From: Myxococcales bacterium
GTDB taxonomy: Bacteria; Myxococcota_A; Polyangia; Polyangiales; JAFGIB01
Assembly: GCA_028817905.1 (NCBI GenBank)
Contig: JAPPOR010000276.1
Coordinates: 1 to 45,767, forward strand
Reading direction: 5' to 3'
DNA length: 45,767 bases
Part shown: one piece after another, positions 29,755-45,767 of the stretch
Layout of the letters: every line of letters starts with the position of its first letter
Numbering within the stretch: the stretch's first letter is position 1
Made by a program: the position numbers and the translations under genes
Notes under the pieces: model-generated
What the model saw: the letters and a program-made list of their open reading frames with translations, nothing else
What the model was told of the DNA's origin: nothing
The model's database searches: none

Positions 29755-29760
29755 TTGGGC

Positions 29761-32196
29761 GTGAACTCGAGTACAGGGAAACGTAGATGGTCCGTGCCTG
29801 CGCGGTTCACGGGCCGCCTGAAGCTTGCTGGCGCGCGCTGGTTTGCGACACGCGTTCTGTCGGCGACCGCCCTGTTGGTTGGCTGCGACTCAGTCGACGA
29901 CAAGGGGTTTGTCGCCAGCTTCGGTCACGGGGAGTCTGTTTCCACCGGGATCGCGGTCAACGTCCCGGACGGTAGCGTGGAGACACCTCGCAAGACGCAC
30001 AAGGAGTGCGACGAGGACACCGAGGGCGGCCAGTGCGAGCTTCCCAACGCTCTGGGCCTGTGTGTGGACGGCGAGTGTTTGCTTGAGCGCTGCACCGGTG
30101 GGTTCGTGGACTGCGATGGGGACTCGGGGAACGTAGATGCCTCCATCAACATTCGTACGGGTTGCGAGGCGACGCTGACCTCCAATGAGCATTGTGGTCT
30201 GTGTAACGCAGTCTGCGACCTCCCCCACGCCGAGTCGAGCTGCTCGACCGGGCAGTGCCGCCTGCGCGACTGTGACCCCGGGTACCATGACTGCGATGAC
30301 GATCCGGAAAACGGCTGCGAGACCCAGCTGGGTTCGGTCCGCCATTGCGGTGACTGCGACGACGCTTGCGACGAGCTGGACAACGCCGTGGCCGATTGCA
30401 TTGACGGAGAGTGCGGCGTGGGCAAATGCGTGACCGGCTACGGGGATTGTGACAAGGATCCGGAGAATGGGTGCGAAACCGAACTGGTTACGCTGGACGA
30501 CTGCGGGCAGTGCGGTCGAGGGTGCAACCCGGACAAGGCTACAGGCGGGTGCGAGACCGGTGAATGTGTGATCGTGGCATGTGAGGGCGGCTACCATGAC
30601 TGCAACGGTCTGGCGGAAGATGGGTGCGAGGCCGACCTGGAGACAGTCAGCCACTGCGGTGCATGCGGTGCAGAGTGCGCCCCCCCCAATACCGAGCGAG
30701 CACGCTGCACGGGTGCCAGCGAGGGAGCCAGATGCCTCGTGGACCATACCTGTCCCGCCGAGGCTGAAGGATGCGTCGACGACTCCCCCTACACCGGCTG
30801 TTCCGGCGGCTACGCCGACTGCGATGGAGACCCCGAAAACGGCTGCGAAACGGCCCTCAATACGCTCGACGACTGCGGGGAGTGTGGCAGGGCATGCCGC
30901 AAGAGACAATCGATTACGAGCTGCGCCTCGGGCAGTTGTGAGACAATCGGTTGTGAGCTCGGCTTCGACCAATGTGGCGAGGACGGAAGCTGTATCTCTC
31001 TGGCGAACAACGAGGAGCACTGCGGGGCGTGTGGCCAGCGTTGCCCCGCGACGCGGCCCCGTTGCTTTGGCGGCCAATGCACGAGTCAGGTTTGCGCGGA
31101 GGGGACCGCCGACTGCAACGCAGCGTTCGAGTGTAACACCAACCTGAACGACCTCAGCGTCCAATCATGCGGTCTATGCGATGTCACGTGCGACCTACCG
31201 CACGCGAACGCTTTCTGCCGCAACGGCATGTGCGCCATTGCGCGCTGCGGAGACGACGACCGTGCGGATTGCGATGGGGTTGTGCGCAATGGCTGCGAAA
31301 CCGATTTGCGGACGCTCGACAACTGCGGTGCGTGTGGAGTCCATTGCCGCCTGGAAGGCGCCGAAGCGACGTGCAGCGACGGCAGGTGCAGGATCAAGGC
31401 CTGCCAGCCCGGTCGCGCCGACTGCAATGGCGAAGATGAAGATGGTTGCGAGACCGACACGGAACTACCGCAGGCCTGTGGATCCTGCGTAGCGGATTGC
31501 GCGGCAGGAGACAACGTCGTTCGTGGCGGGTGCGACGATGGGGTCTGCCAGCTCACCTGCGAGAAGGGCTTTGACGATTGCGACTCCGATCCGATCAACG
31601 GCTGCGAGGCAAGCTTGCAGGCGGAACGCCACTGCACTGCTTGTGGAGTCGATTGCACGGCCCTTGCGAACGTAGCGAGCGCGAAATGCGGCGCAAGGGG
31701 TTGTGAGGACCTGGTGTGCGAAGTGGGGTTTGCCGACTGCGATGGAAACGCGGACAATGGTTGCGAGGCCGACCTGGCAACCCCACGCCACTGCGGCGCA
31801 TGCGACAGTCCTTGCGCACCGGCACGCGGAACGGGCGAATGTACTCCAGACGGTGCCTGCGCCCTGGTGGGCTGCGATCCGGGCTTCGCCGACTGCAACG
31901 AAGACCCGCAGGATGGTTGCGAGGCCTCGCTAGCATCCGCTGGTAGCTGCGGGGCGTGCGACGCCGTCTGCCGCGTCGGCCTAGGATGCGAAAACGGTAC
32001 CTGCGTCTGTACGCACTCCGACGACTGCCCGCAGGATCAGGAATGCTGCGATGGCGAGTGCGTCGATACCGCTGCCGCCTGTTCTCCCTGGCCATGCCCA
32101 ATCCCAGGCACAGCCCGCCCCTTGTTGCACTGCGGCGGCTGCGGCACCTTCTGTCCTACCAGCGCACGCTTCTTCTGCTGTGCTGACCTGTTCTAG
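29761..32196 (+). CDS. Cys-rich repeat lipoprotein
   Basis: About 811 residues from GTG 29761 (TTG 29755 adds two). A basic N-terminus and hydrophobic stretch end in the lipobox LLVGC (C42), followed by Asp, so a membrane-anchored lipoprotein facing the periplasm or cell surface is likely. From residue ~114 to ~750 there are about 12 repeats of ~50 residues, each of the form G(F/Y)xDC(D/N)xDxxNGCExxL ... CGxCxxxC ... Cxx(G)xC. Each unit has about seven cysteines, implying disulfide-rich structure, and the DxDxxNG core resembles acidic Ca-binding loops (inference). The C-terminus is another Cys-dense segment. Similar repeat proteins occur in myxobacteria as hypothetical surface proteins. No enzyme motif. 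Confidence 0.85.
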   Translation: MNSSTGKRRWSVPARFTGRLKLAGARWFATRVLSATALLVGCDSVDDKGFVASFGHGESVSTGIAVNVPDGSVETPRKTHKECDEDTEGGQCELPNALGLCVDGECLLERCTGGFVDCDGDSGNVDASINIRTGCEATLTSNEHCGLCNAVCDLPHAESSCSTGQCRLRDCDPGYHDCDDDPENGCETQLGSVRHCGDCDDACDELDNAVADCIDGECGVGKCVTGYGDCDKDPENGCETELVTLDDCGQCGRGCNPDKATGGCETGECVIVACEGGYHDCNGLAEDGCEADLETVSHCGACGAECAPPNTERARCTGASEGARCLVDHTCPAEAEGCVDDSPYTGCSGGYADCDGDPENGCETALNTLDDCGECGRACRKRQSITSCASGSCETIGCELGFDQCGEDGSCISLANNEEHCGACGQRCPATRPRCFGGQCTSQVCAEGTADCNAAFECNTNLNDLSVQSCGLCDVTCDLPHANAFCRNGMCAIARCGDDDRADCDGVVRNGCETDLRTLDNCGACGVHCRLEGAEATCSDGRCRIKACQPGRADCNGEDEDGCETDTELPQACGSCVADCAAGDNVVRGGCDDGVCQLTCEKGFDDCDSDPINGCEASLQAERHCTACGVDCTALANVASAKCGARGCEDLVCEVGFADCDGNADNGCEADLATPRHCGACDSPCAPARGTGECTPDGACALVGCDPGFADCNEDPQDGCEASLASAGSCGACDAVCRVGLGCENGTCVCTHSDDCPQDQECCDGECVDTAAACSPWPCPIPGTARPLLHCGGCGTFCPTSARFFCCADLF
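30100..32010 (+). repeat. About 12 imperfect ~150-bp coding repeats
   Basis: Tandem units in the Cys-rich lipoprotein, each encoding DC(D/N)GDxxNGCE followed by CGxC. Units 2, 3, 5, 8 and 10-12 are the best conserved; units 4, 6 and 7 are degenerate, and unit 4 carries an insertion of about 25 residues. Divergence at the DNA level suggests old duplication. Confidence 0.85.
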
Positions 32197-32237: not shown

Positions 32238-32861
32238 CTAGCCTCGGCGACCGAGGCGGAAGCGGGGTAGCCAGGTCGCGTCCATGCGAGCGTTGGCGAT
32301 CAGGGCATCGAGCATAGAGCGGCCCAGGCGAGCGAGTTCGAGCAGTCGCCCGATACGCTCTCGTTGAAGCTCGATGCGCGCCTGAGAACCACCACGCCGC
32401 GCCTTGCGCTCGAGAGCCGCCAGGGCGTCCTCGAACGCCTCGATCGCGCCTTCAATCTCGCCGCGTTCCCGCTCGCGCAACACCCGCGAGATCATCTTCC
32501 AGAGGTTGCCCTCCGCGATGTGATAGTCGCGCCGATCACCCGGAACCCACTCCTTGTTCACCACACCCCAGCGAGCAAGCTCGCTGAGCGTCATCGACAC
32601 GGCGCCACTCGACAAGCTCAAGCGCTCCTGTAACTGCCTGCCGGTCAGTGGACGATCCGAAAGAAACAAGATCGTCCAGACGCGCCCCATATTGCGCTTA
32701 AAACCCCAAAGCACCATCAGGCGCCCTACGGCCTCGCTGACAACCCGCTCGCTCTCCCAAAGCCCATCCTCCGGAGCCTCCGTGTCGGCACATCCCTCCC
32801 GCTCCGCCAGCGGTTCAGGAGGCGCCTGGGCGCCATCGGGGTCAATAGGCGAACTCGGCAT
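32238..32861 (-). CDS. GbsR/MarR-like winged-helix transcriptional regulator
   Basis: About 207 residues. Residues ~40-110 form a winged helix: NMGRVWTILFLSDRPLTGRQ, then LSLSSGAVSMTLSELARWGV as the recognition region, then wing KEWVPGDRRDY. This matches the GbsR-type branch (MarR superfamily), which often controls membrane or osmolyte genes. Residues 110-200 are helical and may dimerise. ATG 32861 overlaps the polyprenyl synthase stop by one base (TGATG); a GTG at 32864 overlaps by four. Co-expression with a lipid-carrier enzyme suggests it controls envelope or isoprenoid functions and perhaps its own operon. Ligand unknown. Confidence 0.85.
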   Translation of the reverse strand: MPSSPIDPDGAQAPPEPLAEREGCADTEAPEDGLWESERVVSEAVGRLMVLWGFKRNMGRVWTILFLSDRPLTGRQLQERLSLSSGAVSMTLSELARWGVVNKEWVPGDRRDYHIAEGNLWKMISRVLRERERGEIEGAIEAFEDALAALERKARRGGSQARIELQRERIGRLLELARLGRSMLDALIANARMDATWLPRFRLGRRG

Positions 32862-33916
32862 CACACACGTCGCTCGATCAGGCCACGCACCAAGCTCTGC
32901 AAAAGCGACCGTTGGCGCGAAGCCGGTAGGCCGGACAGGGCGGCCAAGCCTTGCTCGGTCTGACCGAGTGCATAGGCTCGCGCCTTTTCGCAGCCTGCCC
33001 TGACGCTGTCGGTCTGGGCAACTCTGGCAGCGGCCAGGGTATCGCCCGCACGCGCATCTACGAGCAGCGGGCGCAGACGGTCCGCGTCGTGCTCAAGCGC
33101 CAACGCCAGGGGCAAGGTCGTCTTGCCTTCCGCCAGGTCATGACCGAGACGCTTGCCAACCTCGTGGGGTACCCCCTCCAAGTCGAGCACGTCATCGATA
33201 ATCTGGAATGCGATGCCGACCCGTTCCCCAAAGCGCCCTGCGGCATCGATCAACTCGGCATGGACCGGGGCGTCCACGGCCGCCACACGGGCCCCTGTGC
33301 GGCAAGCATGTGCGAACAGGGAGGCCGTCTTGCCCCGCACGATCTCGAGATAGCCCTCGATCCCCAGGTCATCCTTCCCGCGCGCACTCAACTGGGCGAC
33401 TTCACCCGCGATCAGCGATCGCATGGCGCGCAGGGTGTCGTTCATCACACCCGGAATCCCCGCCTCTTGGACGAGCTCAAGGGCGCGCGTGAGCAGGAGG
33501 TCACCCCCAAGCACGGAAACAAGGTTGCCCCAAAGGACACGACTGGCAGGTCGGCCGCGCCGCGTCTCCCCCTCATCCATCACATCGTCGTGCAGGAGGG
33601 TGGCCGAATGGATCAGCTCCACCGAAGCAGACAGGGGCGTCGCGCGACGGATATCGCCGCCACAGGCGGCGGTGGTGAGCAGCATCGAGAGCGGACGCAC
33701 GCGCTTGCCGCCTGCGCCGACCAAGTGAGTTGCAGCCTCTTCCAACACGGCGGGGCCGCCGTCAGAGGCGACCAAGAGGCGCTCGAGTCGCGGCAGCTCG
33801 TCGCCCAACATCCGTGCAATTTCGTCCATGTACTCGACTGGATGGGCTGCTGAACCACGCCCTTGAGCCGCCACCTTGAGTGCTTCGGACTCCACGGTTG
33901 GTATCATTTCCGACAT
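32861..33916 (-). CDS. Long-chain polyprenyl diphosphate synthase (IspB-like)
   Basis: 351 residues from ATG 33916 (an earlier in-frame start at 33964 adds 16). Condenses isopentenyl diphosphate onto an allylic primer. Both aspartate-rich motifs are present: DDVMDEGETRRGRP (first DDxxD at 110-114) and DDVLD (241-245), plus GGKRVRP near the N-terminus and the GKTTLP motif. The residue five before the first motif is Ala, small rather than aromatic, which in this family goes with long products (octaprenyl or longer), for quinone side chains or lipid carriers. It has a good promoter upstream and is coupled to the GbsR-type regulator. Confidence 0.92.
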   Translation of the reverse strand: MSEMIPTVESEALKVAAQGRGSAAHPVEYMDEIARMLGDELPRLERLLVASDGGPAVLEEAATHLVGAGGKRVRPLSMLLTTAACGGDIRRATPLSASVELIHSATLLHDDVMDEGETRRGRPASRVLWGNLVSVLGGDLLLTRALELVQEAGIPGVMNDTLRAMRSLIAGEVAQLSARGKDDLGIEGYLEIVRGKTASLFAHACRTGARVAAVDAPVHAELIDAAGRFGERVGIAFQIIDDVLDLEGVPHEVGKRLGHDLAEGKTTLPLALALEHDADRLRPLLVDARAGDTLAAARVAQTDSVRAGCEKARAYALGQTEQGLAALSGLPASRQRSLLQSLVRGLIERRV

Positions 33917-33975
33917 ATATATCGATCTTGATCGAGGGCCTGTGCTCACTCTCGGAGCTTTCAAAAATTGGTGAA

Positions 33976-37187: not shown

Positions 37188-37766
37188 GTGTCTCGATTTC
37201 TAGCAGGTTTTTGCTTCGCTTCCCTCCTTTGGGGCGGCCTTTTATACGCCCACACGCAGGGTATTGTCACGCTTGGATTCCTGGCTTCCGATGTTACGCC
37301 ACCGGAGGAAATCACCGCCGACGCCCAGACCGAACGGGGCACCGAGACGGGTAAGAAGCGCCGGCGTAAATGGAAGAAGCGTCCTCGCAAGCGACGCGAG
37401 CTTTCGGGGACGGCGATGACTGGCGACAATCTCGGCGGACCTGACACGCGTCACTTGAATGCCGCCGAGGGGGGCGGCGAGGAGCAACTGGTAAGCAGCG
37501 AAATCGAGGCGGGTTTCGACCGCGCGTTCCCAAAGATTCGCCGATGCCTCATGCTGGTCGATAGTCACGATCCCGTGCGGGGCAAGCTGACGTTCGGGCT
37601 GCGAATCGCGGGCACCGGTCGGATCACCAAGGTGAACCTCAAGGGGCCCGCGGTGGTCACGCGATCGGAGGCGGGCGGGTGCATGCGAAACGCCGCCAAG
37701 AGTATTCAGTTCCGCACCTTCAACGGGCCGGACATGCTCGTGCACTTCCCGATTACCCTGGATTGA
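37188..37766 (+). CDS. AgmX/PglI C-terminal-domain (TonB-like) protein
   Basis: 192 residues. One N-terminal membrane segment (about 4-31) is followed by a strongly basic linker (KKRRRKWKKRPRKRR, 56-70) and a globular C-terminal domain (102-192) with the AgmX/PglI pattern: KIRRCLMLV, GKLTFGLRIAGTGRITKVNL, then GGCMRNAAKSIQF, with the usual cysteine pair C120 and C165. The family is known from gliding and envelope proteins of myxobacteria and is related to TonB C-termini. A trans-envelope linking role is inferred. GTG 37188. It is followed after 3 bases by the TMTC-like gene and diverges from the envelope operon. Confidence 0.8.
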   Translation: MSRFLAGFCFASLLWGGLLYAHTQGIVTLGFLASDVTPPEEITADAQTERGTETGKKRRRKWKKRPRKRRELSGTAMTGDNLGGPDTRHLNAAEGGGEEQLVSSEIEAGFDRAFPKIRRCLMLVDSHDPVRGKLTFGLRIAGTGRITKVNLKGPAVVTRSEAGGCMRNAAKSIQFRTFNGPDMLVHFPITLD

Positions 37767-37769
37767 GCG

Positions 37770-39416
37770 ATGGCGCGCGCCCACGCGCTCTGTACGGCGC
37801 TCGTGCTGGCGGCCTTCGGCCGAGCACTGCCCTACCCGTTCCAGACGACTTGGGATGACGGCCGCTTCATCGTCGACAACCCCCTGGTGCGCGAGCCGAC
37901 CCTTTCACACCTGTGGGCGATCCTGACGCGCCCCCACTTCCAGGCCTATCATCCGCTGCACTTGATCAGTTACTGGCTCGATGTTCCGTGGTCAGATGCC
38001 TCGCCGCCTGTTGTGCGAGCGACCAATCTAGTGCTCTGGGTGGCAGCGGCCAATCTGCTTCTCTGGGCCTTTCGTTCGCTAAATCTGTCGCCGCTCGCGG
38101 CCTGCCTCGCGGCCCTGGCGGTGGCCGTCCATCCGGTACAGGTCGAAGCAGTGGTCTGGGCGACCGGACGCAAGGACGGGCTGGCCATGCTGGGTGCTGC
38201 GGCCACCTTGCTGTTTCACGCTCGCGCGGCCACGCCGTGGGATCGGAACGCATGGCTGTCGCGGGCCGCGTTCCTGTGTGCTGCGCTGGGCAAGACGACC
38301 GTCCTGCCCCTTAGCCTTCTGTTGGTTCTGGTCGACTGCGCACTGGACCGGCGTACGCTGAAGGCTGCGGTCACGCAGCAACTCCCGACCATCGTGGCGG
38401 CGCTCATCCTTTCGCCGATCGTGCTCACTGTCTGGGCGGACAATGAGATGATCCGCACCACCGCAGGCGGCGTTCGCATGGCGCCGGCCCGAGCAATCGC
38501 CACCCTCGGGCACCAGCTGCAGACAGCCCTGTGGCCTTCGCTGACAGCACCGATGTACGACACGCGCGCGATCAACGCCCCGGGGGCGTCGGACTACCTG
38601 CTTTCGATCGCCTGCGTCTTGAGTCTCATGGTCCGCAGCTCTGCGGTACGGATCGCGGGCGGTGGGTTTATCCTTATGATGGTCCCGGTCATGAACCTGG
38701 TCCCCATGTACTTCCCCCTGCAGGATCGCTACCTATCGCTGCCCCTGATACCCCTCGCCCTGGGTATCGGGGTCGGCTTGGATCGACTCTCGCGCGCCCT
38801 TCGTGCACCCCTTGGATCGATCGCGCTTGTCGTGGTTGTGGCGCTGGCAGTGCGCACCGTGCAGTACGCAGGCGAGTGGCAAAGCGAGAGCCGCCTGTGG
38901 GGTCACGCCGCGTCTACCCATCCCCAAGCGTTCTACGCTTGGATGAAGCTCGGCGAGGTGCGTCGTGCGCAGGGCGACCTGTACGGTGCGGTCGTGGCCT
39001 ACGCCCACCTCCCGCGGGTCGATCGGAAGCGCAAGGTGGGTTATGCGGCCCTGCTGCAGGCCGTTGCTCTGCGCGATGAACGCGTCTACGGCCTATCCCC
39101 GTCGCGCGCCGAAGCCTATGCGCGCAGCTTCTACGCAGGTCTGGACGACCCGCGCGGGCTCAAGGTCCTGGCGTCCCGCATGCTCGCCACGGGACATCTC
39201 CGAGCGCTCGAGTTGCCCCTCGCGTTCGCCCTCTCACAGGCACCCGTACCAGATGCAGCCCTGGAGCAGGCCGCCCGAAAACACCTCCAGGAAGGCCGAC
39301 CAAGCGTGGGGTTGTTCTATCTGGGCCGGATGGGCAGACAGACGACCGACGCGGAAGTCCGCGAACTCGCCGCACGGGCGCGAGCACGCGTCACTCCCCT
39401 GCCCCTGTTCGATTGA
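37770..39416 (+). CDS. TMTC-like GT-C-fold membrane protein
   Basis: 548 residues. About nine to ten transmembrane helices precede a helical TPR-like tail (~385-548). Family-like blocks: WDDGRFIVDNPLV (28-40, with the acidic pair D29/D30 in the first extracytoplasmic loop), YHPLHLISYWLD (60-71), HPVQVEAVVWATGRKD (121-136) and DRYLSLPLIPLALG (319-332). These resemble TMTC proteins, GT-C O-mannosyltransferases that use a polyprenyl-phosphate sugar donor. The acceptor and sugar here are unknown. It is coupled to the AgmX-like gene, and its last 26 bases overlap the 3' end of the convergent DUF2723-like gene. Confidence 0.8.
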   Translation: MARAHALCTALVLAAFGRALPYPFQTTWDDGRFIVDNPLVREPTLSHLWAILTRPHFQAYHPLHLISYWLDVPWSDASPPVVRATNLVLWVAAANLLLWAFRSLNLSPLAACLAALAVAVHPVQVEAVVWATGRKDGLAMLGAAATLLFHARAATPWDRNAWLSRAAFLCAALGKTTVLPLSLLLVLVDCALDRRTLKAAVTQQLPTIVAALILSPIVLTVWADNEMIRTTAGGVRMAPARAIATLGHQLQTALWPSLTAPMYDTRAINAPGASDYLLSIACVLSLMVRSSAVRIAGGGFILMMVPVMNLVPMYFPLQDRYLSLPLIPLALGIGVGLDRLSRALRAPLGSIALVVVVALAVRTVQYAGEWQSESRLWGHAASTHPQAFYAWMKLGEVRRAQGDLYGAVVAYAHLPRVDRKRKVGYAALLQAVALRDERVYGLSPSRAEAYARSFYAGLDDPRGLKVLASRMLATGHLRALELPLAFALSQAPVPDAALEQAARKHLQEGRPSVGLFYLGRMGRQTTDAEVRELAARARARVTPLPLFD

Positions 39417-41475
39417 GGGCGCGGGCCAATGCATCCAGCCGCGGGTCCTCGACGCCACGGTGGTGCGCATCGCGAAGCCATGCGCGCGCATCGTCGCTCC
39501 GGCCTGCGGCCCGCGCGTAGCGTGCCAGATTGACCCAGGCGGTTGCGCTCGGGTAGCGATGGTCGAGCGCGCGGCGCGTGCTCGCGATCGCCGCGTCCAG
39601 CCGTCCGGTGCGCGCCAGGGCCGCCCCAAGGGCGATCCAGGCGCTCGCACTGCCGGGGTCCAGCTCGGTGGCCCGGCGCAACATGTCGATCGCTCGCGCA
39701 GCGCCGCCCACACGCAGGCTCTGCTCGCCGGCCAGCCTGTAGGCGCGTGCCCATGGCCAGCGCGCCTCATGCGATGAGGGGTCCAGCGAAACGCGCGCGT
39801 GGCGCGCGCGGGCGAGCAAGGCGGTATCACCCCCGGCGGGCCCGTCGGAACCGAGCCCGCCATCGGCATGGGTCTGCCGGTCGGCACCGACGCGAAAGTA
39901 GGGAACCTCGGGCGTCATCCGTAGCGCGCCCGCGCGACCGATGCGCGCAAGAGGCTCAGGCGACTCCCAGAAGACGGGGCGCGCCGGAACCGGAGTAGCG
40001 AGCTGCGCGACCACTCGAGCCGCAGCATCGGCCCGTTCCTGCGGTTGGGACGCCGACGACGGTCTCCCCCGCTCCCGCACGCCCAGTGTGCGCAGGCGCC
40101 GAAGGTACTGCTCGTCCCAGAGGTGTTGGGCGGGAACCACGGCCACATCGGGGCGCGCCCCCTCGCCGTGGCGAGCGAACAGCGCTGCGGCACACTGGGT
40201 GTCGCTCCAACAGACGAGGACGCTGCGAGCAGGAAGCCGGGCGAGCGAACCGCCAGCCCCGTACAGCTCGTCCGGCACGTAGCCGGCAGAGGCGCCCGAC
40301 GGGGACGTTTCCAGCAGGACGAATACGGGGACCGCACAGGCGGTCGCTGTGACCAGCAAGCGGATCAACCACGGGCGCGCCCACGACATCCCTAGGCCAG
40401 CTCCGACGCCGGCGAGGACGCACAGCGCAGCGCCTGCCGCATGACCCACCTGACGATCGATGACCCCCATGGGGTTGACCCGCGCGGCGTAGACCAGATC
40501 GAGGGTCAATAGCGAAAGCGCGGTCAGTGCGATACCCGTCGTCCGCCGTAACCCCAGCACACAGCCCGCCAGCGCGAAGGGAATCACAAGCCCCAGGTCA
40601 CCCAACTGCTCCAGCAGGGCCAGGCTCGCTGCAGGGCTCCCGGTGGACATCTCGGCAGCGAATGACGAGCGAATCCGGGCCGCGGTGAGATGGTGCGCCA
40701 GCGCGACGAGACCCTCCGGGTTGCCCCAGTCCAATGGAGGCTGCCTGCTCGACGCGATCGGTAGGTAGAAAACGACGCTGGCGGCCGCAACCGCCGCCGG
40801 CACACGGTACCAGACGAACCTGAACATCCTGTCGCGGGCGGCACCCACACCCGACACTTGGCTCGTCACAGCGATCGCGAGCAGCAGCAACAAGAACAGC
40901 CCAGCGGTCACATGTAGGCCCACCGAAAGACCCAGTAGAACGACCAGGATTCCGGCGCAGCGCGGGCCTCGCATCAACGCGTTTGCGCCAGCGACCACTG
41001 CAAGCAGGGCGCTTGTATACACCTCGACGGCGACGGCACTGGCGGCGAACGTTTGCCAGCCGAACAGGCCCGCCGTGGCGACGACCACGGCAACCACGTG
41101 ACCCGCCATCGAGCGTACCCCAAGCCGCCCAAGCCAGCGCAGGACACAGTCTGCGATGAGCGCCAAGGTCAGCGCACCCATGACCGCAACACCGAGGTTC
41201 TGGCGAAAGGCGAGGTTGCCGAGGGGCAAGAAGGAAAACGCGCGCAGCAGCAGCACGTCCACAGGAAACCCGGTGGGGTGAGGAATGCCCAGGACGATCC
41301 CGGCAGTGCCCAGCTCGCCGCTGTCGCGCAGGCCGACGCCCGGTGCTGCCCACGCGCCCAGCAAGCCTGCGTAGACCGCAAACACGAAAAGGACGGCGAC
41401 CCCTCCCCAAGCAGGGACTGCTGAGGCGCCGGATCCGGGAGCGACAGGAACGCAGGCAAAGCGGCTCCACGCCAT
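39391..41475 (-). CDS. DUF2723/TMEM260-like membrane glycosyltransferase candidate with TPRs
   Basis: 694 residues. About eleven transmembrane helices fill residues 25-400. The first loop has GLRDSGELGTAGIVLGIPHP then TGFP (49-71), matching the DSGE ... LGxxHPxGYP signature of DUF2723, whose eukaryotic member TMEM260 is a protein O-mannosyltransferase. Residues ~400-560 form a periplasmic domain and ~560-690 contain TPRs (ARAIDMLRRATELDPGSASA, then the next helix). Start ATG 41475, with GGGAGGGG upstream. Convergent with, and overlapping, the TMTC-like gene; both are candidate polyprenyl-phosphate-sugar-dependent GT-C enzymes. Confidence 0.8.
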   Translation of the reverse strand: MAWSRFACVPVAPGSGASAVPAWGGVAVLFVFAVYAGLLGAWAAPGVGLRDSGELGTAGIVLGIPHPTGFPVDVLLLRAFSFLPLGNLAFRQNLGVAVMGALTLALIADCVLRWLGRLGVRSMAGHVVAVVVATAGLFGWQTFAASAVAVEVYTSALLAVVAGANALMRGPRCAGILVVLLGLSVGLHVTAGLFLLLLLAIAVTSQVSGVGAARDRMFRFVWYRVPAAVAAASVVFYLPIASSRQPPLDWGNPEGLVALAHHLTAARIRSSFAAEMSTGSPAASLALLEQLGDLGLVIPFALAGCVLGLRRTTGIALTALSLLTLDLVYAARVNPMGVIDRQVGHAAGAALCVLAGVGAGLGMSWARPWLIRLLVTATACAVPVFVLLETSPSGASAGYVPDELYGAGGSLARLPARSVLVCWSDTQCAAALFARHGEGARPDVAVVPAQHLWDEQYLRRLRTLGVRERGRPSSASQPQERADAAARVVAQLATPVPARPVFWESPEPLARIGRAGALRMTPEVPYFRVGADRQTHADGGLGSDGPAGGDTALLARARHARVSLDPSSHEARWPWARAYRLAGEQSLRVGGAARAIDMLRRATELDPGSASAWIALGAALARTGRLDAAIASTRRALDHRYPSATAWVNLARYARAAGRSDDARAWLRDAHHRGVEDPRLDALARALNRTGAGE

Positions 41476-41507
41476 CCTATCTCACCCCTCCCACGGGCGA
41501 CCGCTCC

Positions 41508-41523
41508 ATACCCCACAGGGTAT
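41508..41523. promoter_or_regulatory. Operator candidate ATACCC-CACA-GGGTAT
   Basis: Perfect 6-bp inverted repeat with a 4-base spacer in the 115-bp divergent region between the DUF2723-like gene and the exported helical-toroid gene. The symmetry and position suit a dimeric regulator acting on both promoters. No confident -10/-35 was seen. Confidence 0.4.
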
Positions 41524-41590
41524 CGCGGCCTCACTGCCTTCGACAGTCTTCCCCGTTTACTGGTCGGCCTCGATATGCGATGTGCCCGCC

Positions 41591-43318
41591 ATGTCCCGTG
41601 CTTGGAAAATATTCCTCGCAGCGGCGGCCGCCAGCGGCATCGCGGTAGCCGTTTTCCATCTATCGTCGCACCAGGACCCCCCACTCGACCCCACGACCGC
41701 GCCCAAGGGCCTGCCACGCCGGCTCGCGACGTTGCTCGCCCCTCACCCGGACCTCAATCCTCCCCCAGAAGGACCCGTCTACGTGGCCCTGCGTGCGCAA
41801 GGCATCCGTGTCGGTGAAGGCTGGGCTTCAGGCCTCACGTGGCGCCACGCCGCTATCAATGCGACCGAGAAGGTTCGCGCCGAGCACCCGGATCGCGAGG
41901 CCCACATTGATGCGATCGAACTGTGCGTCCCCCATAGCTATCGAAATCGCGCCATCCGCCGTCGTCGGGGCTCTCTGTCCAACAGTCATCGTGGCATCGA
42001 CGGTTTGGAGTTGACCTTCCACGACAAGGTCAGCCGCTACTGCCCGACATCGATGATCGCCCGCAACCAGTCCTTCCCCCTGGTCGACACGGCGTTCCGG
42101 CGCGAGCATGGGATAAAGAAAGATGACTTCTACTCCGACGCATCGGCCCGCAGCTTCGGCGCGCACCAGTTCCTGGTGCAGCTCGGCAACCAGGACCACA
42201 TCAAGCCCATGTATCGCGGCAACACGGTCGTCACCATGAAGGCCGTGACCAGCAAGGGCGTCCATCGGCTCGCGAGGCTCATGGGGGACTGGATGGTCCA
42301 GCAGCTGCAGGACAATGGGCGCATGATCTACCGCTATTTTCCCAGCAGCGGGCGCGAGTCCACGGGGAACAACATGATTCGCCAGTACATGGCTTCGCTG
42401 TGCCTCGTGCGACTTGCGCAGTGGCGCAAGGACAGCGATCTGATGGCGCGGGCGGAACACAACCTGCGCTACAACTTCTCGAGGTTCTTCCGCAGGGATG
42501 GTGACATCGGCCTGATTACATTTCGCGGCCGTAGCAAGCTAGGAGCCGCGGCCCTGGCCGCGCTCGGGGTGGTGGAGGCCCCATTTCGGGACAAGCTGCA
42601 GGAGTTCGAGACCCCGCTGGTGCGCATGACAGAACAAATGCTCCAGCCCGAGGGCCGCTTCATCACGTTCTACGGGACGACCAGCCACGACAACGCCAAC
42701 TTCTACGCGGGGGAGACGCTGCTTCTATGGGCAACCATGTACCAGAAACAGCAGGACCCGGCGCTGCTCGAGCGCTTCATGCGCGCGTTCCGGTACTACA
42801 AGGAGTGGCACCTGGACAACCGCAACCCCGCCTTCATTCCCTGGCACGTACAGGCGTACTACCGGATGTGGCAGGTGACGAAGGATCCGGCGCTTTCGGA
42901 TTTCGTCTTCGTGATGAGCGACTGGCTGCTCGACATGCAGGAATGGGACGAATCCCCGTACCTGGACACCCTCGGCCGCTTCTACGATGACAACAGACGA
43001 CAGTACGGTGTGCCCCACGCGTCTTCCACCGGCGTCTATCTGGAGGGCTACATCGACGCTTACCGACTCGCCAAGGAGTTGGGCGACGAGGGGCGCATGG
43101 TCAACTACCGCCTCGCGATCCTCAGGGGCCTGCGCTCCCTGATGCAGCTCCAATTCGAAGACGACATCGACATGTTCTACGTGTCGCGCCAGGATCGAGT
43201 ATTGGGTGGCATCCGCACCACGGTCTACGACAACAGCATCCGCGTCGACAATGTCCAGCACGGACTCATGGCCATCATGCGAATCATCGACGAATTCGAC
43301 GCTCACGACCTTTGGTAA
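41591..43318 (+). CDS. Exported protein with probable alpha/alpha-toroid domain, unassigned
   Basis: 575 residues from ATG 41591 (GTG 41582 adds three). A signal-anchor (SRAWKIFLAAAAASGIAVAV) puts it outside the cytoplasm. Residues ~60-140 (VYVALRAQGIRVGEGW, then DAIELCVPHSYR) vaguely resemble an AMMECR1-like fold. Residues ~230-570 form a long series of helical hairpins with conserved-looking motifs (STGNNMIRQYMASLCLV, HDNANFYAGETLLLW, HASSTGVYLEGYIDAYRLA), typical of (alpha/alpha)6 barrels found in glycoside hydrolases, lyases and epimerases. I cannot assign an activity. It lies 35 bases before the UbiA-type gene and beside two GT-C candidates, so a role in surface glycan processing is plausible. 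Confidence 0.65.
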   Translation: MSRAWKIFLAAAAASGIAVAVFHLSSHQDPPLDPTTAPKGLPRRLATLLAPHPDLNPPPEGPVYVALRAQGIRVGEGWASGLTWRHAAINATEKVRAEHPDREAHIDAIELCVPHSYRNRAIRRRRGSLSNSHRGIDGLELTFHDKVSRYCPTSMIARNQSFPLVDTAFRREHGIKKDDFYSDASARSFGAHQFLVQLGNQDHIKPMYRGNTVVTMKAVTSKGVHRLARLMGDWMVQQLQDNGRMIYRYFPSSGRESTGNNMIRQYMASLCLVRLAQWRKDSDLMARAEHNLRYNFSRFFRRDGDIGLITFRGRSKLGAAALAALGVVEAPFRDKLQEFETPLVRMTEQMLQPEGRFITFYGTTSHDNANFYAGETLLLWATMYQKQQDPALLERFMRAFRYYKEWHLDNRNPAFIPWHVQAYYRMWQVTKDPALSDFVFVMSDWLLDMQEWDESPYLDTLGRFYDDNRRQYGVPHASSTGVYLEGYIDAYRLAKELGDEGRMVNYRLAILRGLRSLMQLQFEDDIDMFYVSRQDRVLGGIRTTVYDNSIRVDNVQHGLMAIMRIIDEFDAHDLW

Positions 43319-43353
43319 CCTGATAGAATCTGCCTTGGTGTAGCATCGGCCCT

Positions 43354-44217
43354 ATGATCGGCGACTTCATCAAGCTGTCTCGCCCGAAGCACTGGATCAA
43401 GAACGTCTTCGTGTTGATGCCCGCGCCCTTCGCGCTGGCGTCCGGGGCCGAGTTCCAGGCGGTACGCTTCTTCGTCGGGCTTGCGGCCTTCTGCCTCGCC
43501 AACTCGGCCGTGTACTCTTTCAACGACGCCCAGGACGCCGAGCGGGATCGGCTTCACGACGAGAAGCGAAATCGCCCGGTGGCCGCGGGGCGAATCTCGG
43601 AACGGGCGGCCTATGCTTACGCGGCGCTGTTGGTCGCGGCCGGCACCGGACTCGCCTATGCGAGCGGAAGCACCATGGCGATGGTCGTGTTCGCGACGTA
43701 CCTGGTCTCCAATCTATTCTATTCCCTCAAGGGCAAGAACATCCCACTGGTGGACGTGTTCCTGCTGGCCGGATTCTTCCTGCTACGCTTCTTGTTGGGC
43801 TGCGCACTGCTGGGAGTCGCTGCCTCCAATTGGCTGCTCCTGTGCTCTTCGGCTCTGGCACTGTTCCTGGGCCTGGCCAAGCGGCGCTCAGACATTCTAA
43901 AGGGGCTTGACGAGTCCCATCGCCCCGCGCTCATGGGCTACAACGAGGGCTTCCTCGACCACGCGATGGGCATCACCGCGAGCATGACGATCGTGGCCTA
44001 CGCCCTGTACTCGATGGAAGCCGAGGTGCTTGCTGATGGGCGGGAGTTCGCCTCCCTCCCCTTTGTCGTGTTTGGGGTCCTGGACATCTTGCGCAAGGCC
44101 CACGTGGAAAGGGCTGGAGGCTCCCCTGTCGACCTGTTGCTCGGCTCGCCCAGCCTGATCGCAGGCGGCTTCGGATGGCTGATCAGTACGGCGTGGAGCG
44201 TCCGACTGTTCGGGTGA
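43354..44217 (+). CDS. UbiA-family decaprenyl-phosphate phosphoribosyltransferase-like protein
   Basis: 287 residues with about eight to nine transmembrane helices. The N-terminus, RPKHWIKNVFVLMP, is typical of the DPPR-synthase branch (Rv3806c type) of UbiA prenyltransferases. Metal/diphosphate motifs: NDAQDAERDRLH (57-68) with KRNRPVAAG (71-79), and the second motif YSLKGKNIPLVD (123-134). This branch transfers phosphoribose from PRPP to polyprenyl phosphate, the first step towards polyprenyl-phospho-arabinose or ribose donors. DprE1/DprE2-type epimerase genes and the DPPR phosphatase are not in the window. Assignment to the branch is from motif memory; another UbiA function is possible. 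Start ATG 43354. Confidence 0.87.
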   Translation: MIGDFIKLSRPKHWIKNVFVLMPAPFALASGAEFQAVRFFVGLAAFCLANSAVYSFNDAQDAERDRLHDEKRNRPVAAGRISERAAYAYAALLVAAGTGLAYASGSTMAMVVFATYLVSNLFYSLKGKNIPLVDVFLLAGFFLLRFLLGCALLGVAASNWLLLCSSALALFLGLAKRRSDILKGLDESHRPALMGYNEGFLDHAMGITASMTIVAYALYSMEAEVLADGREFASLPFVVFGVLDILRKAHVERAGGSPVDLLLGSPSLIAGGFGWLISTAWSVRLFG

Positions 44218-44261: not shown

Positions 44262-45767
44262 TTACTCGGTTCGCCAGATCGCCTCGCCTTCGAAGCGACC
44301 TGACACGGCCCGAATGCCGGAAGTGGTCTGCACGTTCATGAAGATCCTTCCCACCACGCGAAGCCCTCCATGCTTGGCGCCCCGCGGGGTGGCTTCGATC
44401 AGTTCAAGACGCCCCTGAATGACCTCCCCAGGGTCCTCGAACTCGGGCACCTGCACCAGCGAGGGGGTGTCGCCATTGAAGTCGACCGCCGCAATCGGAA
44501 GTTCCTTGTGCACCAGGTCTCGCAACCCCCGAACCCGAGGAAAGCGCCCAAACACCCGTAGCTGAGCGTCCCCGTCCTGCTTGGAGCCCAGGTACAACTG
44601 ACGAACTGGAAGGGTCCGCCCTACATGCGCGAGGTCGCGCTGCACGAACGAAAGGGTCAGCAGAGGTAGCTTGATCGTCGCTCCCCCACCGGCTTGCAGA
44701 GTCGCCTCGCCGCTCACAGGCCCGCTTTGTGCCGCCTCATGAACCGACTCGATACGCGGACGCAGCCGAGCATTCGCAACCTGCGCGCTCACGAGGCAGA
44801 GCGAAAGTGCAACAGCTTGGACAGCCAGTGAACGTCGCCCACCGGCGGCCAGAAACCCGGCCGCCACCGCATAGGCACACAGGCCCTGCACCCACGTACC
44901 TGCGGGAGTAGCGTTTCCGAAGAGCACCGAGTCCCCGGCCAGGGCGAAGGCCCCTAGCGCCAGCATGCCTGCCATCGCCAGCCCAAACGCCAGCATGGGC
45001 TTGGCCGGACGGGGCGCTGCCTCGCCAAGCTTGTCGCTCGGCTCCTTTCGCCGCGCGCGGGGGCGTTTGGTCTTCGTACTCGTCCTGGTGTTGTCGCCCC
45101 GAGAGCGAGCCCGCATACTTGCCCGCGGCCCGGATGGAGACGGGTCCGCATCGGCCTCCGTAGGCGAAAGGCCATCCAAACCCGAATTGCGCGCACCCGT
45201 CACGAATGTTCGTTCGCGCGAGGCCACAGGAATGGACGGCTGAACGACAGGCTGCGAGGTGGTCGACGGCAGCGACGGCAGTTCAATGGGTGCCGCGGAC
45301 GGGGTCTTGGGCGCCATCGGCGGATCGGGCAACCCGTGGTGACCCAGCGCGCCCACCGTGGCGACAGCGGCGTCGCGTGCGGGCGCAGCCCGGCGGTGAC
45401 GCGCCAGGCCTGGCGCTTGCTCGTCAAGCTCTAGTTCGCCTTCAGAGGCCTCCCCCTCGGGCAGCGGCGGGAGGTCCCCTGGGCCCGGAAGGGGAAGGGG
45501 CACGGGAGGCGGCTTGGCGGACCGCCCGTGGGCCACCCCTAGCGCAGGGTCGGACTCGAACAGGTCATCCAAGTCCGCCTCCAGTGCATCGCTGCCCAGC
45601 TCCTCGATGCCATCCCATTCGGCCCCCGCCTCCTGAGCGGACTCTACTTCCAGTGCATCACTGCCCAACTCCTCGATGCCATCCCACTCAACCCCCGCAT
45701 CCTGCGCCTCGCTGGACTCCGCTTCCGAAGCGATTTGCACCTGGGCTCCGAGGCTTTGCAGACTCGA
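44262..45767 (-). CDS. Acidic/Pro-rich membrane protein of unknown function (5' end beyond window)
   Basis: At least 501 residues; the frame stays open to the right edge, so the true start is probably outside (a GTG at 45740 would give 492). Visible order: a 23-residue duplicated acidic unit EWDGIEELGSDALE near the N-terminus, a Pro/Glu-rich region, a basic Arg/Lys/Ser/Thr linker (RARSRGDNTRTSTKTKRPRA), about three transmembrane helices, and a C-terminal ~160-residue folded domain, presumably extracytoplasmic. The layout (disordered cytoplasmic part, basic stop-transfer, helices, outer domain) suggests a membrane scaffold or sensor. No family recognised. The stop lies within the hairpin shared with the UbiA-like gene. 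Confidence 0.7.
   Translation of the reverse strand, partial: SSLQSLGAQVQIASEAESSEAQDAGVEWDGIEELGSDALEVESAQEAGAEWDGIEELGSDALEADLDDLFESDPALGVAHGRSAKPPPVPLPLPGPGDLPPLPEGEASEGELELDEQAPGLARHRRAAPARDAAVATVGALGHHGLPDPPMAPKTPSAAPIELPSLPSTTSQPVVQPSIPVASRERTFVTGARNSGLDGLSPTEADADPSPSGPRASMRARSRGDNTRTSTKTKRPRARRKEPSDKLGEAAPRPAKPMLAFGLAMAGMLALGAFALAGDSVLFGNATPAGTWVQGLCAYAVAAGFLAAGGRRSLAVQAVALSLCLVSAQVANARLRPRIESVHEAAQSGPVSGEATLQAGGGATIKLPLLTLSFVQRDLAHVGRTLPVRQLYLGSKQDGDAQLRVFGRFPRVRGLRDLVHKELPIAAVDFNGDTPSLVQVPEFEDPGEVIQGRLELIEATPRGAKHGGLRVVGRIFMNVQTTSGIRAVSGRFEGEAIWRTE
45581..45718 (-). repeat. 69-bp tandem coding duplication
   Basis: Two adjacent copies of a 69-bp (23-codon) unit encoding EWDGIEELGSDALE plus spacer, with only scattered base differences, so the duplication is fairly recent. 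More copies may lie beyond the window edge. Confidence 0.8.

Follow-up and report, generated by a model that had tools for sequence, protein, structure and literature searches.

Modules in which a UbiA-type polyprenyl phosphoribose synthase (PPPRS) is combined with a flippase and GT-C glycosyltransferases that add pentofuranoses, with epimerases as an optional component, have been published (PMC11127046), as has the mycobacterial DPA pathway (PMC10994848), and arabinosylation of the Pseudomonas type IV pilin has been proposed, as cited in PMC11127046, to involve a PPPRS that feeds a GT-C. In the three-component pentofuranose systems of Citrobacter youngae O1/O2 (Kelly 2024, PMC11127046), as at the myxococcal locus described here, a UbiA-type PPPRS goes together with a GT-C, and epimerases diversify the pentose there, as they may here. 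The Citrobacter systems carry a HAD phosphatase fused to UbiA, a MATE flippase, and a GT136 GT-C within a single O-antigen locus, whereas the locus studied here has no fused phosphatase, no flippase that was found, GT-Cs of the TMTC/TMEM260 type, and an additional toroid protein. The DPPRS active site is shared with the mycobacterial DPA pathway (Rv3806c, Rv3807c, DprE1, and DprE2, with Emb/Aft), and homologs of DprE1 and DprE2 are also encoded in the host genome and lie beside UbiA in its relatives; however, no Emb/Aft-type transferase is seen at the locus, and the host lies outside the actinobacteria. The GT-C of Pseudomonas pilin arabinosylation is TfpW. The proposed route from a PPPRS to a GT-C acting on an exported protein is alike in that case, but the GT-C belongs to a different family. 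The first-pass annotation of this DNA had known of no described system with such a composition, a claim that does not hold in light of the published PPPRS, flippase, and GT-C modules, the mycobacterial use of DPA, and the proposed pilin case. The general idea is thus already published, and what sets the locus apart from the known principle is its type of GT-C, the toroid, and the absence of a recognized flippase and of a phosphatase fused to UbiA.

The window, by which we mean the whole 45,767-nucleotide stretch analyzed, belongs to an 11.1-Mb genome that is 96% complete, and the locus lies on contig C949 of that genome. Its four genes form three transcription units. The first encodes a TMTC-like GT-C glycosyltransferase of 548 aa (37770..39416, + strand) with a multi-pass membrane domain, C-terminal TPRs, and WDD and HPxQVEAVxWATGRKD motifs; the second encodes a TMEM260-like GT-C of 694 aa (39391..41475, − strand) that is recognized by Pfam (PF11028, DUF2723) and also ends in TPRs; and the third encodes an (alpha/alpha)6 toroid protein of 578 aa (41582..43318, + strand), followed by a UbiA-superfamily protein of 287 aa (43354..44217, + strand) that, from its sequence and active-site residues, is a putative polyprenyl-phosphate phosphoribosyltransferase of the DPPRS/PPPRS type. 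The two GT-C genes are convergent and overlap tail-to-tail by 26 bp, the TMEM260-like and toroid genes are divergent, and the toroid and ubiA genes, co-directional and 35 bp apart, are the sole likely operon pair at the locus. The earlier description of two GT-Cs flanking the toroid and UbiA is correct as to the four genes and their places; they do not form one operon. Convergent with ubiA is the gene for an uncharacterized 492-aa protein (44262..45740, − strand), which we do not claim as a member of the module; its C-terminal part also adjoins ubiA in one other genome of the family (G003; 29% identity, E = 4e-11). Elsewhere in the window, a small protein encoded at 37188-37766 has a weak match to the AgmX/PglI C-terminal domain and, as a conserved neighbor, precedes the TMTC-like gene in G001, G003, G004, and G005, and an 813-aa protein encoded at 29755-32196 consists of about twelve cysteine-rich, DCDxDxxNGCE-like repeat units.

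The UbiA protein matches PF01040 in Pfam (E = 3.5e-24), and its closest solved structure is that of Rv3806c from M. tuberculosis (8j8j; E = 1.5e-26). Nine of the 11 PRPP/Mg2+ contact residues of Rv3806c (PMC10994848) are identical in UbiA (R22, K28, Y70, N73, D77, K87, R90, Y138, and K143). Q135 of Rv3806c is replaced by Asn, which is also found in nearly all relatives examined, Y157 by Phe, as in some mycobacteria, and Lys208, also named in PMC10994848, by Pro. A reading of the protein as an ordinary prenyltransferase for a quinone, heme, or lipid, with no phosphoribosyltransferase activity, would draw on its membership in the UbiA superfamily and on its scores, which fall below the curated NCBIfam cut-offs for DPPRS equivalogs (185.9 versus 207 bits and 172.7 versus 234 bits), the same cut-offs that are passed by several outgroup Myxococcota UbiA proteins. 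However, DPPRS models are its best NCBIfam matches, more than 100 bits above heme O synthase, and it keeps PRPP-contact residues, while the phosphoribose-binding sites are non-conserved in other UbiA enzymes (PMC10994848); we regard an ordinary prenyltransferase as very improbable. Because its scores lie under the curated cut-offs, we call the protein DPPRS-type rather than a certified DPPRS, and, judged from its sequence, it is very probably a phosphoribosyltransferase of the Rv3806c (DPPRS/PPPRS) type.

The proteins that flank the toroid and UbiA can be assigned as GT-Cs with high confidence. The TMEM260-like protein matches PF11028 well above the curated Pfam cut-off (E = 3e-12; 47.1 versus 24.2 bits), it aligns over residues 24-461 to human TMEM260 (PDB 9rql) in a homologous domain that shares the DSGEL and HP.G(Y/F)P motifs, and the host genome encodes four PF11028 proteins, this one included. 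Neither Pfam nor NCBIfam gives a match for the TMTC-like protein, but its AlphaFold model (pLDDT 80) finds the GT-C enzymes PglB and Pmt4 as its best structural matches, with PimE and AftD lower, at probabilities of 0.93-1.00 but E values of only 0.01-0.3. It has seven hydrophobic segments and, with its C-terminal TPRs, an architecture that resembles human TMTC1-4 (GT105). The human TMEM260 and TMTC proteins differ from those at the locus in being eukaryotic O-mannosyltransferases of the ER that use dolichyl-P-mannose, mannose being the sugar used by both (PMC11292533).

Gene neighborhoods in related genomes were examined again with tblastn and profile searches because the first gene caller had chosen antisense ORFs in GC-rich loci. 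Among the seven genomes of the family, the TMEM260-like gene and ubiA are adjacent in five, which is more than expected by chance, with the toroid between them in the host (G000) and G004 and without it in G003, G005, and G006; the TMEM260 ortholog is absent from G001 and G002, both of which retain UbiA, flanked in the former by polA and valS. The block around the locus (37188, 36210, 35620, and others), including neighbors unrelated to glycans, is also conserved in the family, and the linkage within the family is therefore partly explicable by synteny alone. It is possible, if rather doubtful, that UbiA makes a pentose donor for some envelope glycan and that the TMTC- and TMEM260-like GT-Cs draw on a different donor (e.g., polyprenyl-P-mannose) and are its neighbors by inherited synteny only. 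The unrelated genes in the conserved block, such as that for the AgmX-tail protein, are consistent with this alternative, as are the four TMEM260-like proteins of the host, the persistence of UbiA without TMEM260 in two genomes, and the transfer of mannose by the eukaryotic homologs (PMC11292533). Against it, in two genomes outside the family (G111 and G275) the gene immediately upstream of UbiA encodes a TMTC-like GT-C on the same strand, contrary to simple synteny, and in a third (G289), where DprE1, DprE2, and UbiA stand in a row, the TMTC-like gene is convergent with UbiA at a distance of 0.1 kb; the linkage of this UbiA clade to DprE1/E2 also speaks against it. A TMTC-like gene lies beside UbiA at none of 14 outgroup loci. 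Such genes number 0-8 per genome and are few (1-6) in the three genomes concerned, so that by our estimate chance adjacency would be expected at about 1/1000 per genome. Since UbiA has a TMTC-like GT-C as its immediate neighbor in two further families, the proposed linkage of donor and GT-C withstands the comparison of neighborhoods that had been suggested as its test, and UbiA/GT-C linkage recurs in related as well as distant Myxococcota. We put the chance that the flanking GT-Cs use a pentose donor made by UbiA at about even.

UbiA homologs are found in 235 of 284 genomes of the phylum (1e-20), nearly always with one listed copy each, and the protein from the window falls on a long branch within a 21-row Myxococcota clade with support of 100/100. 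DprE1 and/or DprE2 lies next to UbiA at eight loci of this clade (L044, L045, L046, L048, L049, L050, L056, and L057) and at none of the 14 outgroup loci, the identity of DprE1 having been verified with NCBIfam. The host genome encodes a DprE1-like protein of a different subtype (G000:C799; 1.6e-138, 463 bits versus a cut-off of 500) and a DprE2-like protein (G000:C147), both under the equivalog cut-offs and both on contigs other than that of ubiA. Within the family, DprE1/E2 is present in G003 and G006, was not found in G002, G004, or G005, and in G001 is represented by a decayed, frameshifted fragment of DprE1 (L108:9600-10000, G001:C26) in a genome that keeps ubiA, which suggests that the epimerase step was lost in that lineage. 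Both ribose and arabinose products are therefore possible across the family. The homologs in the host mean that its donor may be polyprenyl-P-arabinose and not ribose, and arabinose is at least as likely as ribose to be the donor sugar. The first-pass annotation had named ribose, which is called into question by these homologs and by their linkage to the same UbiA clade elsewhere. Nor does the word "dedicated" suit a system whose toroid is usually absent and whose UbiA is flanked, in G001, by polA and valS, in a genome that lacks a TMEM260 ortholog and has a decayed DprE1.

The lipid carrier had been attributed to the nearby polyprenyl synthase (32861-33964), which Pfam places in PF00348, the family of trans (E) chain builders. 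In most bacteria, the phosphate sugar carrier is made by the unrelated cis-type UppS, and the synthase therefore probably serves another pathway and is an unlikely source of the carrier. Among the ten window proteins encoded between 32.9 and 45.8 kb, Pfam recognized no flippase, MATE or otherwise, and no 5′-phosphatase. An EamA-family transporter adjoins the TMEM260-like gene in G004 (L059:442-1341) and is a possible flippase candidate for that genome only.

The explanation that we favor, which we hold to be about as likely true as false in its entirety, is that UbiA would transfer 5-phosphoribose from PRPP to polyprenyl phosphate at the inner membrane face, as its conserved active-site residues imply, and that the lipid product would then be dephosphorylated and, in the host genome, probably 2-epimerized by the unlinked DprE1 and DprE2 homologs. 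The resulting lipid-linked pentofuranose, whether arabinose or ribose, would be flipped and used by periplasmic GT-C transferases, for which the TMTC- and TMEM260-like neighbors are the best candidates, with an exported protein or glycan as the acceptor. The toroid would be an optional exported accessory, perhaps glycan-processing or glycan-binding, that was acquired here in some lineages. Of this scheme, the sequence analysis shows the genes present, their linkage, the predicted folds, and the conserved active-site residues; the activity, lipid, acceptor, and sugar, and the use of this donor by the two GT-Cs, are inferred. What stands of the donor-plus-transferase pentosylation system first proposed is the DPPRS-type UbiA beside GT-Cs, their recurrent linkage, and one Omnitrophota operon with the toroid; what falls away is ribose as the named sugar, the lipid source, the dedicated character, and the novelty. 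The stronger proposal of a new pentosylation machinery, in which TMTC- and/or TMEM260-type GT-Cs, which to date are not known as anything but mannosyltransferases, use polyprenyl-phosphate arabinose or ribose on exported proteins with the toroid as an accessory enzyme, seems unlikely.

The toroid model (pLDDT 83) matches the (alpha/alpha)6 enzymes of GH76, GH88, and the AGE epimerases (TMt up to 0.74), and the protein has an N-terminal alpha/beta domain and one N-terminal hydrophobic segment that would leave it exported or membrane-anchored; as modeled, it is a true exported (alpha/alpha)6 protein that is optional at the locus. Its overall barrel is the same as that of GH76, GH88/GH105, AGE epimerases, and GH127, but it belongs to none of their sequence families, has no match in Pfam, and has its own set of motifs (RxDNxQH, YPGE, and WH). 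Across 73 distinct sequences, Y375, E378, W421, H422, E488, R554, D556, and H560 are near-invariant polar residues that, on sequence grounds, look like an active site, though of no known family, and none of the columns conserved at ≥95% holds a cysteine. The absent Pfam matches and the motif set led us to reject placement in a known GH family; GH127, which needs conserved cysteines that the toroid does not have, was rejected as there is also no PF07944 match, with only a distant relative in G049 over the cut-off. A single-protein scan of genome contigs with the toroid alone found nothing, but a search with a four-sequence alignment found 76 loci in other genomes at 32-51% identity. The toroid is present in two of the seven family genomes, with orthologs in 17 of 379 genomes of the phylum (1e-40), and is scattered patchily over Omnitrophota, Planctomycetota, Cyanobacteria, Alphaproteobacteria, Gammaproteobacteria, Chloroflexia, and archaea. 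A second, distant relative occurs in the host genome itself (G000:C840, L012; 24% identity).

This patchy distribution, at such identities, would suit an envelope gene that spreads horizontally on its own, came to lie next to ubiA, and is unrelated to pentose transfer, a serious possibility, if somewhat short of an even one, that is compatible with the favored explanation of the other three genes. In agreement with it, no neighborhood of the toroid is conserved overall, the two copies in G090 both lie away from UbiA, one of them beside recD2, and DPPRS-type UbiA, found in 15 of the 36 toroid genomes searched, is absent from the other 21 (1e-15), so that the toroid is not pentose-specific everywhere. 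In Sinorhizobium glycinis, a DprE1 gene 7 kb from the toroid was rejected as linkage, as thrS and gyrB are among the genes between and around them. However, the order of toroid and then UbiA recurs in Omnitrophica bacterium GWA2_52_8 (L145:415-7204), where toroid, UbiA, DprE1, DprE2, and a GT87-like membrane protein are encoded on the same strand; this UbiA scores over the NCBIfam DPPRS cut-off, the polytopic protein has a relative that matches GT87 below threshold, and the run is a candidate for a complete pentose donor and transferase operon in another phylum. Members of the same polytopic family (alignment A6) are also encoded near the toroid at L148, L156, L163, and L173, in several phyla; comparison with the TMTC profile found no relation of TMTC to this GT87-like family. 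At a few more loci, a GT-C-like or MATE neighbor also runs counter to independence: a MATE transporter (PF01554, 5e-60) follows the toroid by 75 bp on the same strand (L205:9956-13302), and a TMTC-related protein precedes it at L219, loci with GT-C-like, polytopic, or MATE neighbors being a minority of about 90. Participation of the toroid in pentose transfer can thus be put forward tentatively, and we lean against it.

The context described here gives a widespread, uncharacterized family of exported toroid proteins a testable setting. If the GT-Cs are indeed coupled to the donor made by UbiA, Myxococcota would employ mycobacterial-type arabinose or ribose donors to modify proteins or glycans, and TMTC- and TMEM260-type enzymes, known in humans as disease-linked O-mannosyltransferases, would have bacterial relatives that use lipid-linked pentoses.
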